DNA from: Mesotoga infera
GTDB taxonomy: Bacteria; Thermotogota; Thermotogae; Petrotogales; Kosmotogaceae
Length of the DNA stretch: 64,000 nt
NCBI RefSeq assembly: GCF_900157305.1
Contig: NZ_LS974202.1
Location: forward strand, 2,418,001-2,482,000
Direction: 5' to 3'
The position numbers were made by a program, and so were the translations under genes. Shown piece after piece: positions 56,239-63,880 of this stretch. Below the pieces are notes generated by a model that did not search any database, had not been told where the DNA came from, and worked only from the letters and a program-made list of their open reading frames with translations. Numbering within the stretch: the stretch's first letter is position 1; the number at the start of each line of letters is the position of its first letter.

Positions 56239-56259
56239 CCTCTCGCTGGAGTGATTTCC

Positions 56260-57783
56260 TTGGAAGACTTTCCCGTTCTTGAGATGAAACATATTTCCAA
56301 ATCCTTTCCCGGAGTTGTGGCCAACGACGACATATCTCTGCAGTTGAAGAAGGGAGAGGTTCATGCCCTCCTGGGCGAAAACGGTGCCGGCAAGACTACC
56401 TTGATGAATATTCTCTTCGGCATCTACCATGCCGACCGGGGCGAAGTTTTCATAAACAATAGCAAAGTGTCTATCGCATCGCCCAGTCACGCACTCAAAC
56501 ACGGTATCGGTATGGTTCAACAGCACTTTACCCTGGTTCCATCGTTTACAGTGGCTGAAAATGTGATTCTCGGTTTGAAGGATTTCGGGTTTGTCATAAA
56601 GACGAAAACGGTAGAATCGAAAATAAATGAACTTTCGGAGGCCTATGGACTTCCGGTGAACCCGCGCGCACGGGTCTGGACGCTCTCCGTCGGTGAAAGA
56701 CAGCGAATCGAAATCCTGAAGCTGTTGTACACTGGCGCCAGTATAATCATACTCGACGAGCCGACGGCAGTTTTAACTCCTCAAGAGAGCGATACGCTTT
56801 TCAAGGCCATTAGGAAACTCGTAAGCGAAGGCTCCTCAGTGATTTTCATAAGCCATAAACTTGACGAAGTTCTCTCGATAAGCGACAGGATAACCGTCCT
56901 GCGTGGCGGTAAAGTGGTTGGTACAGTCGAAAGAGAAAATATAGACCGACGCGGTCTGATAAGAATGATGGTCGGTAGAGATGTGCTCCTCGATCAGGAA
57001 AAACCGGTGGTGGAAACGGGTAGAGTTATTCTCAAGATAGAGAATCTCAATGTCAAAAACGACAAAGATCTCATGTCGGTCAGGAATCTCAGTCTGGAGG
57101 TCAGATCGGGCGAAATTCTCGGAATAGCCGGTGTTGCCGGTAACGGTCAGCGCGAATTGGCTGAAGCGATCTATGGCCTCAGGAAGAAGGTTTCCGGAAG
57201 GATAGAACTCGATGGGCATGAGCTGAAGCAAGGCAATGTGGCTGAAAGGATCAGAGCCGGCCTTAGTTTCATCCCCCAGGACAGGAAGACCGTGGCCACG
57301 TGCCCTAACCTGTCGGTGATGAGCAATCTCTTCATGAAGAACTCGATCTGTGAACTGGTACACTGCTCACCTTGGAAACTCGACGGCAGACGTATGCACT
57401 CGAAGGCCGACGAGCTGATCGACGAATTCTCTATATCGACACCTTCGGCGAAAACCGAGGTCAGGTATCTTTCCGGTGGAAATTTGCAAAAGGTCGTTCT
57501 GGCCAGAGAGCTTTCAGCCGAGCCCAAAGTTATTATTGCAGAGCACCCCACTCGAGGCCTGGATATAGGTGCTATGGAGTTCGTTTACAAATCTTTGCTC
57601 CTGCAAAAGAAAAGAGGAGCGGCTATACTCCTTCTGGCCGGAGAACTTTACGAAATCTTCAGACTTTCTGACAGAGTGGCGGTGATTTATGAAGGACAGA
57701 TAATGGGCTACACTCCACCTGATCCTTCATACATCGAGGAGATAGGCTTCATGATGGCCGGCACGAGACAGGAGGATCACTAA
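56260..57783 (+). CDS. Nucleoside ABC transporter, tandem ATPase
   Basis: A 507-residue protein with two ATPase halves. The first has GENGAGKTT and WTLSVGERQR. The second has a degenerate P-loop (GVAGNGQRELA) and LSGGNLQKV, with AEHPTRGLD in place of a canonical Walker B. This pattern is standard for the RbsA/NupO type. The TTG start follows CTGGAG; a GTG nine bases upstream overlaps the SD. It is the second gene of the BMP importer operon. Confidence 0.9.
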   Translation: MEDFPVLEMKHISKSFPGVVANDDISLQLKKGEVHALLGENGAGKTTLMNILFGIYHADRGEVFINNSKVSIASPSHALKHGIGMVQQHFTLVPSFTVAENVILGLKDFGFVIKTKTVESKINELSEAYGLPVNPRARVWTLSVGERQRIEILKLLYTGASIIILDEPTAVLTPQESDTLFKAIRKLVSEGSSVIFISHKLDEVLSISDRITVLRGGKVVGTVERENIDRRGLIRMMVGRDVLLDQEKPVVETGRVILKIENLNVKNDKDLMSVRNLSLEVRSGEILGIAGVAGNGQRELAEAIYGLRKKVSGRIELDGHELKQGNVAERIRAGLSFIPQDRKTVATCPNLSVMSNLFMKNSICELVHCSPWKLDGRRMHSKADELIDEFSISTPSAKTEVRYLSGGNLQKVVLARELSAEPKVIIAEHPTRGLDIGAMEFVYKSLLLQKKRGAAILLLAGELYEIFRLSDRVAVIYEGQIMGYTPPDPSYIEEIGFMMAGTRQEDH

Positions 57784-57784
57784 G

Positions 57785-58897
57785 ATGAAGATCAGAATAG
57801 AGAAGAGACTCGAGATACCCCGATACGCTGGGATTGTAGTGCCTGTAATATCCGTGGCGTTCGCCCTATTGATAATGGGAGTCATACTTCTTGTTTTCTT
57901 TATGGGCCGCCTGGGAAATTTATCATCGGCCTTCAGGGAAACTTTCGAGGCTTACAAGGAGATGCTGACCTGGCCTTTTGCAAATAGATATGGATTGTTT
58001 AGTACGTTCATGAGGATGGTGCCCCTCGCTTTTGTGGCGTTAGGTCTGTCTTTTGCCTACAGGATGAAGATCTGGAACATAGGCGGTGAAGGTCAGTTGT
58101 ACATGGGTGCGTTGGCTTCTACCTGGGGCGCTCTTTTCCTTTTCAAAGACGTGAAATCCCCTTTGATGATGATTGTCTTGCTTTCGATCATTGGCGCCGC
58201 GGCAGGAGCTGTGTGGGCGTTGATACCGGCGCTCATGAAGGCCTTTGCCCGAACCGACGAAATAGTTGTAACTCTCATGCTGAACTATGTAGCCATCTTC
58301 TGGGTCGATTACCTCGTTTACGGCCCCTGGAAAGATCCGAAAGGATATGGCTTCCCCGGAACGGCGCCTTTCCCCAGCCAGGCAAGACTTCCCTCTTTTT
58401 TTGACGATGAATTCCATATAGGGATCTTCATCGCTCTGGCCGTCGCTTTATTGCTTCAATACATATACAAAAAGACCGGTTGGGGTTTCAATTCTCAAAT
58501 AGTCGGCGACAACCTACTGGCCGCGAGGTATTCGGGGATAAATGTCAGGAACTACACCATAATCGCCCTGGTGGTAAGTGGCGCGATAGCAGGTCTCGGA
58601 GGTGCGGTGCAAATGATGGGGGTTCAGCACAGGCTACAGCATGGATTCTCTCCAGGTTATGGATACACTGCCATAATAGTCGCCTGGCTGGCCAAATTGA
58701 ATCCACTCGCCATATTATTGGTCTCTTTTCTCTTTGGAGGCCTTCTAGTCGGCAATGACCAGCTCCAGATGTTCTACAAACTTCCGATGGCTCTCATCTC
58801 CGTCTTTCAGGGCCTGGTGCTCTTCTGTCTTCTCGGCGGAGAGGCCGTATTCAAATACAGGCTTGCGATCGTCAAGGAGGTGCCGGAAAGTGAATGA
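57785..58897 (+). CDS. Nucleoside ABC transporter permease 1
   Basis: A 370-residue membrane protein of the branched-chain/BMP permease family with about ten helices. FAYRMKIWNIGGEGQLYMGA is a conserved inner loop. It follows the ATPase stop by one base. AGGAGG lies 9 bases before the ATG. Confidence 0.9.
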   Translation: MKIRIEKRLEIPRYAGIVVPVISVAFALLIMGVILLVFFMGRLGNLSSAFRETFEAYKEMLTWPFANRYGLFSTFMRMVPLAFVALGLSFAYRMKIWNIGGEGQLYMGALASTWGALFLFKDVKSPLMMIVLLSIIGAAAGAVWALIPALMKAFARTDEIVVTLMLNYVAIFWVDYLVYGPWKDPKGYGFPGTAPFPSQARLPSFFDDEFHIGIFIALAVALLLQYIYKKTGWGFNSQIVGDNLLAARYSGINVRNYTIIALVVSGAIAGLGGAVQMMGVQHRLQHGFSPGYGYTAIIVAWLAKLNPLAILLVSFLFGGLLVGNDQLQMFYKLPMALISVFQGLVLFCLLGGEAVFKYRLAIVKEVPESE

Positions 58898-59828
58898 TCT
58901 ACCCTCCTTTGTAATATCCACTTTACAGGCAACAGTAAGGGCAGGAACGCCTCTTCTCTTTGCCGTTCTGGGTACGATCTTCACCGAGAGGTCTGGCGTG
59001 ATGAATCTCGGCCTTGAAGGTCTGATGTTGGTTGGAGCGATAGGAGGTTTTATGGCGTCCTACAATACGTCGAGCCTGGTCGTGGCCATTCTGGTGGCCA
59101 TGCTGGCCGGCGCCGTGCTTGGATTCATACATGCCTTTTTCACGGTTACACTCAAGATCAACCAGATCGTGAGCGGACTGGCAATCACAATGCTTGGCAC
59201 CGGAATCAGCGGACTGTGGGGTAAGGACTACATAGGAGTTATAGCCAGAAGGTTCGAACCCGTAAAGATTCCACTGCTTTCAGACATTCCTTATATAGGC
59301 AGGATATTTTTCGAGCATGATCTGCTTGTCTATATAAGCTTCCTACTCGTCCCGGTCATGTGGTTCGTGATATACAAAACAAGAGCCGGTATGACGCTCA
59401 GGGCGGTCGGAGAATCGCCTGATGCCGCCGATGCCAAAGGAATCAACGTTTTTGCAGTCAGATACCTTTTCACGATTCTCGGAGCCTCTATAACGGCAAT
59501 CGGTGGTGCCTATCTGTCTCTGGCCTACAACTCGATGTGGATAGAAAACATGACGGCCGGAAGAGGATGGATTGCCATCGCACTGGTGCTGTTCGCCACC
59601 TGGGATCCCTTCAAGTCTCTAATCGGTGCTTATCTCTTCGGTGGTATAACAGCCCTGGGGCTGAGGCTCCAGGCCATCGGCGCCCATATCTCTCCCGATT
59701 TCTTGAAGATGTTGCCTTACCTCCTCACGATAGCAGTTCTCTTCTTCACCTCTACCGACACTTTAAAAAGAAAGGTCGGCGCTCCAGCTTCACTTGGGAT
59801 ACCTTATTCTAGGGAGGATAGAACGTAA
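58890..59828 (+). CDS. Nucleoside ABC transporter permease 2
   Basis: A 312-residue paralogue of the preceding permease. LGTIFTERSGVMNLGLEGLM is the characteristic loop, and AVGESPDAADAKGI the later cytoplasmic loop that meets the ATPase. The GTG start is preceded by AAGGAGG at 9 bases and overlaps the previous gene by eight bases. Upstream ATGs in the same frame lie inside permease 1 and are rejected. Confidence 0.9.
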   Translation: MNDLPSFVISTLQATVRAGTPLLFAVLGTIFTERSGVMNLGLEGLMLVGAIGGFMASYNTSSLVVAILVAMLAGAVLGFIHAFFTVTLKINQIVSGLAITMLGTGISGLWGKDYIGVIARRFEPVKIPLLSDIPYIGRIFFEHDLLVYISFLLVPVMWFVIYKTRAGMTLRAVGESPDAADAKGINVFAVRYLFTILGASITAIGGAYLSLAYNSMWIENMTAGRGWIAIALVLFATWDPFKSLIGAYLFGGITALGLRLQAIGAHISPDFLKMLPYLLTIAVLFFTSTDTLKRKVGAPASLGIPYSREDRT

Positions 59829-59854: not shown

Positions 59855-59884
59855 TTGATCTGTAACATTGTTTTATGGTATAAA
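59855..59884 (+). promoter_or_regulatory. Promoter of the aromatic-leader/TrpXYZ-type operon
   Basis: TTGATC and TATAAA are 18 bases apart, with the predicted start near 59891. A leader peptide and terminator follow before the first transporter gene. Confidence 0.6.
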
Positions 59885-59916
59885 ATATCAAACGAAGTTT
59901 TTGGAGGTTAACAGTG

Positions 59917-60009
59917 ATGGCTCGGGCAACCCTGGTAAGCTTTGCATACGCTTATTGGTTTAGGAGGAACGTCCTTTCTACGGACTCCTCCAGTGTGTGC
60001 TTGAGTTAA
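59917..60009 (+). CDS. Leader peptide rich in aromatic residues
   Basis: A 30-residue ORF with GGAGG at 9 bases (GTG at 59914 is an alternative start). Its middle reads SFAYAYWFRRN: Phe, Tyr, Tyr, Trp and Phe within seven codons, directly before the first RNA hairpin. The stop codon lies past that hairpin and before a strong terminator. This is the layout of an attenuation leader. The peptide itself need not have a function. Downstream is a TrpXYZ-type importer, so the sensed amino acid is likely Trp or Phe. Confidence 0.7.
   Translation: MARATLVSFAYAYWFRRNVLSTDSSSVCLS
59963..59991 (+). promoter_or_regulatory. Attenuator hairpin 1:2 with antiterminator segment
   Basis: GGAGG pairs with CCTCC, and GTCC with GGAC, forming a stem. 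The segment AACGTCCTTTCT (59968-59979) inside it can instead pair with AGAGAGGACGTT (60031-60042), giving 11 Watson-Crick pairs and one G-U. That pairing removes the ascending arm of the terminator. A ribosome halted at the Trp or Phe codon would cover GGAGG and free this segment. Confidence 0.65.
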
Positions 60010-60028
60010 AATACACGAAGGAGAGAAG

Positions 60029-60066
60029 AGAGAGAGGACGTTGAGAGACGTCCTCTCTCTTTTTTT
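60029..60066 (+). terminator. Attenuator terminator
   Basis: A perfect 13-bp stem (AGAGAGAGGACGT with its complement), a 6-base loop and a run of seven T. It lies 20 bases before the ATG of the binding-protein gene and after the leader ORF. Confidence 0.92.
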
Positions 60067-60085: not shown

Positions 60086-61057
60086 ATGAAGCGGGTTCTT
60101 GTATGTGTGGTACTACTTTTAGGTGTTCTTGGATTATCGTTGCAAACGGTGGCGATCACGGCGATAGTGGAGCATCCGGCTTTGGATGCAGTCAGGGAGG
60201 GAATCATCGATGTTTTGATCGAAAACGGCTTCAAGGATGGGGAGAACATCAAGATCGATTTCCAAAGCGCTCAGGGTTCAGTTTCTACGGCAGTAGCTAT
60301 TGCGAAGCAGTTTATCTCCCTAAACCCTGCGGTGATGATAGGAATAGCGACACCTTCCGCCCAGGCTCTAGTTAACGCAACAAAAACGATTCCCATTGTC
60401 TTCAGTGCAGTGACCGATCCAGTAAGTGCAAACCTCGTACCTTCCTTCGGAAAAAATCCCGGTAATGTGGTAGGAATAAGCGATATGACTCCCGTGAAGA
60501 CGCAGATTCAACTCTTGAAACTTGCCATTCCCGACGTCAAGACGATTGGCATCATCTATAACTCGGGAGAGGCCAACTCTGTGACAATTAGGCAGTTTGC
60601 AAAAGAGGCCTGTGATGCTCTTGGATTGAACATCATAGATATAACCGGGTCAACAACTGTCGAAATGATTGCCTCGCTAAACGCCCAAATAAAAGATGTA
60701 GATGCAATATACATAGGAACAGACAACACAGCTGCATCCAGTATGGAGTCGATCTCCACCGTCGCACTGAGAGAAAAAGTTGCCATAGTCGCCGCAGACA
60801 TCGATATAGCGAGAACCGGAGGATTGATCGGTTTTGGTTTCAATTACTATCAGATAGGCAGATCTACCGGAGACCTCGTGGTTCAGATTCTGAACGGCGT
60901 CAGCCCGTCGGAACTTGAGACCAAGATTCTCGGACAGGAATCGCTTATACTTTTCGTCAATACAGACATAGCCGAACAGCTTGCGATAAACATTCCACAA
61001 TCAATACTTGACAGGGCAGACCTGGTAGTTGAAGACGGCGTAGAAAAAACAAGGTGA
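60086..61057 (+). CDS. TrpX-type ABC substrate-binding protein (PF04392 family)
   Basis: A signal peptide (KRVLVCVVLLLGVLGLS) leads a 323-residue periplasmic-binding fold. AITAIVEHPALDAVREGI and TKTIPIVFSAVTDPVSANLV are characteristic of this family, whose characterised members bind tryptophan or other aromatic amino acids. GGAGGG lies 7 bases before the ATG; an earlier GTG start falls in the terminator and is rejected. Expression should depend on the upstream attenuator. Confidence 0.88.
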   Translation: MKRVLVCVVLLLGVLGLSLQTVAITAIVEHPALDAVREGIIDVLIENGFKDGENIKIDFQSAQGSVSTAVAIAKQFISLNPAVMIGIATPSAQALVNATKTIPIVFSAVTDPVSANLVPSFGKNPGNVVGISDMTPVKTQIQLLKLAIPDVKTIGIIYNSGEANSVTIRQFAKEACDALGLNIIDITGSTTVEMIASLNAQIKDVDAIYIGTDNTAASSMESISTVALREKVAIVAADIDIARTGGLIGFGFNYYQIGRSTGDLVVQILNGVSPSELETKILGQESLILFVNTDIAEQLAINIPQSILDRADLVVEDGVEKTR

Positions 61058-61061
61058 TCTG

Positions 61062-62081
61062 ATGGCGATATTGGAACAGGGACTGATTATTGGCCTCATG
61101 GCCCTGGGAGTCTATATCTCTTTCAGAATAGTTGATCTTCCCGACTTGACGACAGACGGCTCTTTCGCCCTCGGAGCCGCCGTCGCCGTTAGAGCTTTGG
61201 TTACCGGAATACCCGCCTGGTTAGCGATTACGCTGGCGGCTATATTTGGAGCGGTGGCTGGAAGTATTACGGGAATGATACATAGGAAGTTCAAGGTCAA
61301 CGTTCTGCTGGCCGGAATCCTAGTCATGACAATGCTTTATTCGGTGAATCTCAGGGTCATGGGAGGCCCTAATCTCCCCGTTCCAAGAGTAGTAGCGGAA
61401 AAAAGCACACAGAGTTTCGAAGAGATGAGTGGCGGCACCGGTCTTGAAGATCTGTTCGGAGAGTTAGAAATCAAAACGCAGGAACGCGCCCTCAAGACCG
61501 GTTCTGTTGTCAAAAACATCTTCAACAACGATCTGAACGGTTCAGATTTGCTTCTCATAATTCTTATAATATCGACCGTGATAATACTCCTTACGATTAT
61601 CCTCAGATCCGACCCGGGAATGTTGCTAAGGGCTTTCGGCAGTAACCCATCGGGAATAGTAGCGTTTGGCGTTTCCCAGGATACACTTGCCGTGGTAGGT
61701 CTGACCATGTCAAACTTTATCGTTGGATTGAGCGGTGGACTTTTCGCCCTGTACAGTGGTTTCTCAGATGCAACGATCGGCCAGGGCATGGTCGTAACGG
61801 GACTGGCGTCGGTTATTATGGGTGAGATACTTCTGGGTAGGGTAAAGTTTTTCTATGGTCTTCTCTCGCCCATAATCGGCGGAGTAATATATCAGATGCT
61901 TCTTTCACTGGCGATGAGGTACGGTTACAGGATCGGATTCCTGGCAAGCGATATGAAGCTTCTGACTGCCGTATTCATAATAGTTGTAATAGGTGTGCGT
62001 CAGATATCCACATCTGATGGAAAAAGGAAAGTGAAACAGGAGGTGAAAAGATTATGGTCGAATTCAAAAATCTCACAGTGA
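61062..62081 (+). CDS. TrpY-type ABC permease
   Basis: A 339-residue membrane protein. FRIVDLPDLTTDGSFALGAA is the signature loop of permeases that pair with TrpX-type binding proteins. A hydrophilic stretch of about 60 residues, probably extracytoplasmic, lies between early and late helices. It follows the binding protein by four bases. Confidence 0.9.
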   Translation: MAILEQGLIIGLMALGVYISFRIVDLPDLTTDGSFALGAAVAVRALVTGIPAWLAITLAAIFGAVAGSITGMIHRKFKVNVLLAGILVMTMLYSVNLRVMGGPNLPVPRVVAEKSTQSFEEMSGGTGLEDLFGELEIKTQERALKTGSVVKNIFNNDLNGSDLLLIILIISTVIILLTIILRSDPGMLLRAFGSNPSGIVAFGVSQDTLAVVGLTMSNFIVGLSGGLFALYSGFSDATIGQGMVVTGLASVIMGEILLGRVKFFYGLLSPIIGGVIYQMLLSLAMRYGYRIGFLASDMKLLTAVFIIVVIGVRQISTSDGKRKVKQEVKRLWSNSKISQ

Positions 62082-62776
62082 CATACAACCAGGGCCTGGA
62101 AAATCAGAAAGTTGCTCTTGAAGAAGTGAATATGAAGATACTCGAAGGCCAGTTCATAACGATTGTAGGACCCAACGGGGCCGGAAAATCGACTCTCCTC
62201 AAAGTCATACTTGGCGAAGTCAAACCGACGGAAGGTCTCTATATGATAGACGGCAAAGTAATGAACAACATGAAACCGCACAAACTGGCCTGCTTCATAG
62301 GGAGAGTCTATCAGGATCCGAATACCGGTATCTTTCCGGCTCTGACAATAGCGGAGAATCTCATAATAGCTTCTAAAAAGGGTGGGCGTTCTATGAAGTT
62401 CAGCAAAGTGAAGGAAGAGGCCATCTCCCTTCTTGCAAATCTTGGTCTGGGACTTGAAACGCGCCTCAAGACAAAGGCCGGTGAGCTGTCGGGTGGCCAG
62501 AAACAATCTTTGGCAATGGTAATGGCGATCCTGTCACGACCGAGATTGCTTCTTCTGGATGAACACACGGCCGCCCTGGATCCGGTAAGCGCGCAGAAGG
62601 TAATGGAGCTGACCCAGAGGATAAACAGAGAGTACGACGTCACGATAGTGATGATAACCCATAATATGGAGTTCGCCAACGCCTACGGTGAAAGGCTTTT
62701 AAGGCTGATCGACGGAAGAGTTGCCCAGGATGGTGTCAGAGATCTCAAAACGAAGGCCGTCGCCGCGTTATGTTGA
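62054..62776 (+). CDS. TrpZ-type ABC ATPase
   Basis: A 240-residue ATPase with GPNGAGKST, LSGGQKQ and LLLLDEHTAALD, then ITHNMEFA. It overlaps the permease by 28 bases and has AGGAGG at 9 bases. It completes the importer. Its 3' end overlaps the convergent reductase gene by nine bases. Confidence 0.92.
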   Translation: MVEFKNLTVTYNQGLENQKVALEEVNMKILEGQFITIVGPNGAGKSTLLKVILGEVKPTEGLYMIDGKVMNNMKPHKLACFIGRVYQDPNTGIFPALTIAENLIIASKKGGRSMKFSKVKEEAISLLANLGLGLETRLKTKAGELSGGQKQSLAMVMAILSRPRLLLLDEHTAALDPVSAQKVMELTQRINREYDVTIVMITHNMEFANAYGERLLRLIDGRVAQDGVRDLKTKAVAALC

Positions 62777-63880
62777 TCTTTGGTGTATTCCGCCGGTGAA
62801 AAAGCTCTTGAAAACCAAAAGGGATACATTTTCCGCGTACCGGGAAATGTAATTCATGAAAATCCTGGCTGAACGCCTGCTCTTGAGAAGAAGAACGTTT
62901 TTCTGAAGGTCGGCGTGAAACCGTCTTCTAAAGGAATCTGCGATCTGGAGATGCTTCACGATCGGGTATAACCTCTCCAGATATCTTTGACCGGCGGTCT
63001 TACCTTTGATTCCGTCTTCCACGATCGACAAGGCGGCCTGTCTTCCAGAATCGAGGGCGAAATCTATCCCCTCACCCGTCCAGTTATCTACAAGACCCGC
63101 ACTGTCACCTGCAAAGAAAAGTCCCTCGAAAGCTTTGTTCAGCTCGAGAACCTTCTCCATCTTGAAAAGCGGTATAGGGGTGCCGGTAAGCTCTACGTCT
63201 TCGTCGAAGGTTCTTTTTATAAGCATCTCCATCTCTTCGTAAGCCGGTACATTCTGTGCATCTGGATATACACCGCCACCGATAGAGTCGAAGGATTCTC
63301 CTGGAAACTTCCAGAGGTAGCCATCCTGCACAAAAGTTATGGAGGCACTTCCTGTAGGCGAACTGTAACCGTGATAGACTATCCCGTATGCCGGAGGTTC
63401 CAGATTTGCCAGCTTTGCTCCGAACACACCTCCTGCAACGATAACGAACTTACTTTCGATCTCGAGGTTTTCGCCTTTGACTAGAAAACCACCATCAGTT
63501 TTTTCAATTTCGCGGACCTTGGAGACGGCAAAATTCCCTCCCCTATCTATCACTGATTTTAGAAGAGAGTGATCTAACTCTTTGCGATCAACCGTAAAAA
63601 ACAAAGGACGCTTCGAAATATATGTCACTAAATCTCTGGCCACGCCCTCGTCGACGTTTCTAAACGAAATCTCTCTCGTTTCGAAGCCTCCTGGCTCGAT
63701 CTCAGGGAAGATCTCTCCGAGAACTCTAATAGAGCGTGGAGTCAGACCTCCTCCGCAGCCTTTGTAACGGGGAAAGGACTTCGAATCGATAAGAATGAAG
63801 TCGACGCCTTCCCTGCCAAGAATCCTCGCGGCGGCCAAGCCGGCCGGTCCGGCACCCACGACGGTTACCGTTCTAGTCAT
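62768..63880 (-). CDS. FAD-dependent oxidoreductase, geranylgeranyl-reductase-like
   Basis: A 370-residue flavoprotein. The dinucleotide-binding GAGPAGLAAA is at residues 9-18, followed by KGCGGGLTPR, which matches the family's substrate/flavin Cys region, and FAGDSAGLVDNWTGEGID near residue 270. Members reduce isoprenoid double bonds of lipids or quinones, but substrates vary. It starts inside the stop region of the NuoK-like gene. Confidence 0.82.
   Translation of the reverse strand: MTRTVTVVGAGPAGLAAARILGREGVDFILIDSKSFPRYKGCGGGLTPRSIRVLGEIFPEIEPGGFETREISFRNVDEGVARDLVTYISKRPLFFTVDRKELDHSLLKSVIDRGGNFAVSKVREIEKTDGGFLVKGENLEIESKFVIVAGGVFGAKLANLEPPAYGIVYHGYSSPTGSASITFVQDGYLWKFPGESFDSIGGGVYPDAQNVPAYEEMEMLIKRTFDEDVELTGTPIPLFKMEKVLELNKAFEGLFFAGDSAGLVDNWTGEGIDFALDSGRQAALSIVEDGIKGKTAGQRYLERLYPIVKHLQIADSFRRRFHADLQKNVLLLKSRRSARIFMNYISRYAENVSLLVFKSFFTGGIHQRST

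Follow-up and report, generated by a model that had tools for sequence, protein, structure and literature searches.

The window analyzed here, a 64,000-nucleotide stretch of the Mesotoga infera genome, encompasses an operon that encodes, on the plus strand, an ABC importer: a substrate-binding protein of the TrpX family (60086-61057; PF04392, E-value 1.9e-81), a TrpY-like permease (61062-62081; PF02653) and a TrpZ-like ATPase (62054-62776; PF00005). Another ABC operon (56251-59828), with genes for an ATPase containing two ABC_tran domains and for two permeases, the nearest NCBIfam models for which are putative B6 transporter permeases but with scores below the cut-off, ends about 30 bases ahead of the promoter described next. 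On the minus strand, the gene for a geranylgeranyl-reductase-like flavoprotein (62768-63880; its score falls short of the family cut-off) converges on the importer operon, the last bases of which it overlaps. Ahead of the importer genes, the initial annotation proposed a leader-peptide attenuator consisting of a promoter, a 30-codon ORF with an aromatic run before a hairpin, and a terminator; direct reading of the sequence located all these elements where they had been placed.

The leader and its alternative folds

The promoter (59855-59884, plus strand) is formed by TTGATC (59855-59860) and TATAAA (59879-59884), separated by an 18-nt spacer, and includes an extended -10 element, TGGTATAAA, with the TG at 59876-59877 (plus strand). 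Both were identified by direct reading; this promoter, kept in 9 genomes of the genus, was missed by a simple promoter scan, and TTGACA/TATAAT-type promoters are found at the equivalent place in other clades. A Shine-Dalgarno sequence, GGAGG (59903-59907, plus strand), also kept in the genus, precedes the leader ORF, MARATLVSFAYAYWFRRNVLSTDSSSVCLS (59917-60009, plus strand), which extends over 30 codons from the ATG at 59917 to the TAA at 60007-60009; the ORF listing starts it one codon upstream, at a GTG. The putative control codons, Phe9-Ala-Tyr11-Ala-Tyr13-Trp14-Phe15 (59941-59961, plus strand), are delineated by the sequence, by comparison within the genus and by their density relative to shuffled sequences.

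The hairpin that follows these codons, 1:2 or the protector (59963-59991, plus strand; -15.0 kcal/mol, z -2.9, all folds being computed at 37 °C), holds in its 5' side and loop the segment AACGTCCTTTCT (59968-59979, plus strand), a mimic of the descending arm of the terminator that does not vary among 9 genomes of the genus and would be sequestered by the hairpin. The intrinsic terminator (60025-60066, plus strand) indeed has the 13-bp core that had been claimed for it (60030-60042 with 60047-60059); its helix extends outward (60025-60042 with 60047-60064) and is followed by a U-rich tail (60060-60066), and none of 200 shuffles equals its predicted energy of -29.0 kcal/mol (z -5.7). As also claimed, the mimic can pair with the ascending arm of the terminator, AGAGAGGACGTT (60031-60042), over 12 positions, one of which is a G-U. 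The predicted antiterminator (59968-60046; -30.3 kcal/mol, z -4.4, equalled in 0/200 shuffles) is a long interrupted hairpin in which the mimic and the ascending arm close over inner stems (59985-60025, plus strand; 59985-59991 with 60020-60025 and 59994-59999 with 60012-60017) that, in the computed fold, enclose the leader stop codon.

The terminator lies between the leader stop and the importer gene, and both the complementarity and the co-evolution described below indicate that the antiterminator helix excludes it, as expected of an attenuator. In the classical trpL leader, the antiterminator strand is region 2, that is, the 3' arm of hairpin 1:2, and the leader stop lies between regions 1 and 2. 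Here, the stop (60007-60009) is located 3' of the entire hairpin (59963-59991) and the antiterminator strand belongs to the 5' arm or loop, so that the departure from trpL pointed out in the initial annotation stands. Under the thermodynamic model, the antiterminator forms on ribosome-free RNA too, and hence the OFF state would require either kinetic formation of hairpin 1:2 or a translating ribosome; for an untranslated leader, the folds favour the antiterminator, but kinetics may not.

Conservation and co-evolution across Thermotogota

Within the genus, the locus is present in 9 of the 10 genomes, and ATACGCTTATTGGTTTAGGAGGAACGTCCTTTCT is identical in all nine. The earlier codons vary, including a change from Phe to Tyr at codon 9; from Tyr11 onward the run is invariant, and the late codons and the mimic are identical base for base, which makes covariation impossible to measure from the genus alone. 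One of these loci (L003) carries a 1-nt deletion just 3' of the mimic that shifts the frame of the ORF and makes it end a few bases earlier, still before the terminator; TGTGTGCTTGAG remains intact despite the changed frame, which argues that this segment is held at the RNA level. A DNA search for the element yielded no matches outside the genus because the sequence diverges while the design persists, and more distant relatives were reached by anchoring on the importer gene.

The importer substrate-binding protein (PF04392) is encoded in 40 of the 103 Thermotogota genomes, representing 16 of the 38 genera, and the attenuator system accordingly extends beyond Mesotoga and Kosmotoga to 16 genera. 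Each of the 47 distinct upstream regions contains a leader ORF with an aromatic run, a hairpin, a leader stop, a terminator and the importer gene, in this order (mean z of hairpin 1:2, -2.3), with runs such as FAYAYWWF, QYFYFWYW, SYYYWY, NVYYF, FAFAF, SFYFYYFWW and LWWW. The initial annotation had named, as the case that would speak against it, homologous regions that keep the terminator but not the leader codons or the complement; there is no such region among the 47. At all loci bar one, the mimic of the descending arm is on the 5' side or in the loop of the hairpin and region 2 does not pair with region 3; the sole exception is L027, where the best pairing involves the 3' arm, as in trpL. 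Counted from base 1 of the final aromatic codon, the distance to the mimic is 3-14 nt (mostly 8-11); the leader stop is usually 11-29 nt ahead of the terminator. As judged from codon counts, the leader ORF appears to be enriched in aromatic codons at all 47 loci, as an attenuator would be: the densest 7-codon window contains 3-7 of them, and at least five in 36 of the 47 loci, compared with 7 of 2,820 dinucleotide shuffles subjected to the identical ORF search. The mimic outscores shuffled leaders (p <= 0.05) in 44 of the 47 loci.

Two families vary this design. The inner stems have stronger equivalents in other clades; in the Thermotogaceae-like family f3, for instance, region 2, GATTCCCC, can pair with GGGGAATC, which repeats region 1 farther downstream and begins at or just past the leader stop, so that this copy would be masked once a ribosome had reached the stop. 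In family f2, where the runs resemble YFYFWYW, stalling at the final Trp would place the ribosome over the mimic, and therefore only the earlier aromatic codons would work.

Does the mimic evolve together with the terminator arm? Over 17 classes, the pairings of each mimic with its own terminator arm total -272.1 kcal/mol; permuting the arms among the classes gives -198.4 on average (sd 11.0), and the own total was not reached in any of 200,000 permutations. The initial annotation had called for an alignment of related upstream regions, and one of 14 leaders from five lineages, well beyond the genus, shows compensatory changes in 6 of the 12 antiterminator pairs and, across genera, in 5 of the 12 terminator pairs, counts that do not represent independent events given that the sequences are related. 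The mimic:terminator cells are paired in 94% of cases, a proportion that falls to ~54% if the partner is displaced by 1-3 columns. A given terminator column can change together with both of its partners, as column 93 does (G to A). Thus, on comparative evidence, the mimic and the terminator arm co-evolve, and this, like the presence and the conservation of the elements themselves, emerges directly from the sequences and their comparison.

Leader codons and the importer pocket

The designation of the importer as TrpXYZ-type by the initial annotation holds at the level of the family but is less safe for the ligand. The substrate-binding protein scores below the cut-off of the TrpX equivalog (NCBIfam NF041285; 262 vs 390 bits), and its structural relatives are 3lkv, 6hni and 3lft. 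The structures of this family bind Phe (3lkv), Tyr (6hni) and Trp (3lft), the choice being set by two pocket residues (PMC6816091). The protein in the window has Asp and Tyr at these two positions and so differs from the pocket of the Trp-binding protein; taken together with the sub-cut-off score, this makes 'aromatic amino acids, Tyr/Phe likely' a safer description than 'Trp'.

Among the 47 Thermotogota loci, a pocket Asp goes with Tyr-containing runs in 42 of 44, and a pocket Phe is found in three, all with Tyr-free runs (FAFAF, FVFAF and LWWW). The hypergeometric chance of such a match is 10/16,215, or ~6e-4, a figure that ignores relatedness and reflects about two independent events. In these sequences, the codon content of the leader follows the identity of the pocket residue in contact with the side chain of the ligand. 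Where importer paralogues lie in tandem within a genome, they differ in their leader mix, with SFYFYYFWW beside LWWW (L013/L081), VYAYY, VYYFWY and FVFAF (L012/L029/L079), and FSFF beside FSFYFYYW (L080), which suggests split substrate ranges.

The M. infera genome (one contig, 99.96% complete) encodes prephenate dehydratase but no member of the chorismate-binding (TrpE-type, anthranilate synthase) family, a search for which 14 of 14 controls were positive; none of the listed genomes of the same bacterial family has such a protein either. Given this absence, Trp import is probably needed by this organism. Auxotrophy is no rule, however, because some Thermotogota possess both TrpE and the importer.

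Outside Thermotogota, Tyr-dominated leaders accompany importers whose pocket residue is Glu, the one present in the Tyr-binding protein, at five loci from Halanaerobiia and about 25 from relatives of Acholeplasma. In Halanaerobiia, leaders with Tyr runs precede the importer in five close relatives (L084, L085 and L089-L091); most other relatives there are without them, and T-boxes were not detected in the Halanaerobiia relatives scanned. In the Acholeplasma relatives (L086, L119-L122, L125-L142), long runs of Tyr codons give way to a co-evolving segment and to GTGTTATTAC repeats; the pairing of this segment with the downstream strand scores -367 for own partners vs -255 +/- 14 for swapped ones (0/20,000). 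The segment and the repeats suggest a putative relay-type antiterminator. Furthermore, at two loci (L060:3640-4010 and L117:1204-1385), the Rfam family RF02863 (Enterococcus sRNA_2410) maps directly upstream of the importer protein; the L060 region contains an SD-preceded ORF, MIHSIKPQLNKAYFSYFR, and the L117 leader ends in SYFFSYFR. Here, RF02863 probably represents a leader-peptide attenuator acting in cis and not an sRNA acting in trans. No aromatic-run leader was found in the Pasteurellaceae relatives (L051-L055, L057-L059).

Proposed mechanism, alternatives and relation to known systems

The reading that we favour, with a probability of roughly 0.88, is that the aromatic amino-acid importer is controlled by ribosome-mediated transcription attenuation that senses charged Phe/Tyr/Trp tRNA. 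We infer that the leader is translated and that stalling on it governs read-through, in the following direction. When aromatic amino acids are ample, the ribosome would pass the aromatic codons and reach the stop at 60007, where it would break the long antiterminator hairpin; hairpin 1:2 could then re-form, the terminator (60025-60064) would fold, and transcription would end. When aromatic tRNA is short, the ribosome would stall with Tyr13, Trp14 or Phe15 in the A site and cover with its 3' edge the GGAGG in the 5' arm of hairpin 1:2. The part of region 1 past the ribosome edge, that is, the mimic, would thereby be freed to pair with the ascending arm (60031-60042) over the inner stems, and the antiterminator so formed would block the terminator and allow the importer genes to be read. 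The usual footprint places the 3' edge of a ribosome some 15 nt from base 1 of the codon in the P site. If Trp14 occupies the A site, the ribosome would reach about 59968, covering the GGAGG and hardly any of the mimic, and the geometry thus appears compatible with this scheme.

Could a ligand cause the leader peptide itself to stall the ribosome, as happens with TnaC, an arrest peptide responding to tryptophan, with no codon-by-codon sensing of supply? The WF context and the short leader resemble arrest peptides, and the invariance of the run within the genus from Tyr11 would fit as well. Outside the genus, however, the identity and position of F, Y and W vary freely (FAFAF, YYYWY, LWWW, SFYFYYFWW), the only kept feature being the density of aromatic codons at a near-fixed distance from the mimic, and Tyr-free and Tyr-rich leaders match the pocket residue of the importer; we therefore regard nascent-peptide arrest as improbable. 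Slightly less probable still is that the element senses slow or lost translation in general, or is a weak constitutive terminator, with the aromatic codons incidental: the preference of ribosome-free folds for the antiterminator is in line with this, but nearly all loci far surpass shuffles in aromatic density, which correlates with the importer pocket, and the mimic co-evolves with the terminator. The least probable alternative is that a riboswitch, T-box or protein-binding leader operates here and the ORF is there by chance, for, notwithstanding the T-boxes upstream of a Clostridium relative (L056) and the published T-box of Streptococcus suis trpXYZ (PMC9382623), the intervening RNA is short and variable and retains its coding content, no Rfam family reaches the threshold in the window region, the Thermotogota loci scanned give only tRNAs, and the T-box model RF00230 has no match in either. 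Rfam matches to mir-483, MIR156 and sRNA around the terminator hairpin are far below gathering and were dismissed as chance.

Attenuation by a translated leader, the reading we retain, belongs to a classical mechanism class. Like E. coli trpL and pheL, this system combines a short leader ORF, in which the regulated amino acid is encoded, with mutually exclusive protector, antiterminator and terminator helices, and a stall would favour the antiterminator; unlike these, it has the antiterminator strand in region 1, the stop after region 2 and a mixed Phe/Tyr/Trp run. The related TrpXYZ importer of S. suis is induced by Trp limitation via a T-box (PMC9382623); the importer family and, presumably, induction by shortage through sensing at the tRNA level are shared, but there the sensor is a tRNA-binding RNA and here, putatively, a translated leader. 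Runs of control codons outside Proteobacteria are also a feature of the His-leader attenuators of Firmicutes (his genes, PMC9413887; hisS/hisZ, PMC2965389), which respond to histidine and for which the accessible parts of these papers describe no region-1 antiterminator or pocket correlation. The same papers place leader-peptide systems in Proteobacteria, Actinobacteria and some Firmicutes; for Thermotogales, other motifs are mentioned in a survey of RNA regulons (PMC3766115).

In the searchable literature, which includes few subscription papers, we found no description of a leader-peptide attenuator in Thermotogota. The claim of the initial annotation that no such system was known for a Thermotogota transporter has to be softened in one respect: a 2004 comparative paper, mainly on proteobacterial attenuators, reportedly mentions attenuators in Thermotogales. 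The architecture, the phylum-wide conservation and the match between sensor and pocket appear to be undescribed in the searchable literature.

A more inclusive scenario, to which we give even odds, is that all these loci represent an undescribed, family-wide attenuator class with a region-1 antiterminator and a codon mix that evolves with the pocket, in effect a sensor of about ten codons that reports the substrate of the transporter. This class would span Thermotogota and, with the relay architecture, the Acholeplasma relatives, and might include Halanaerobiia and enterococci. A second switch would operate in Thermotogaceae: at the stop codon, the ribosome would mask the region-1 copy, by which the antiterminator is otherwise locked. 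With the attenuator proposed here, classical attenuation would reach, in a different arrangement of helices, a largely thermophilic phylum that branches deeply and for which it has seemingly hardly been described. A substrate sensor readable from sequence in a family of Trp-, Tyr- and Phe-binding transporters would make the leader codons usable for the annotation of importers, and these codons may offer a means to test how the specificities of sensor and transporter evolve together.
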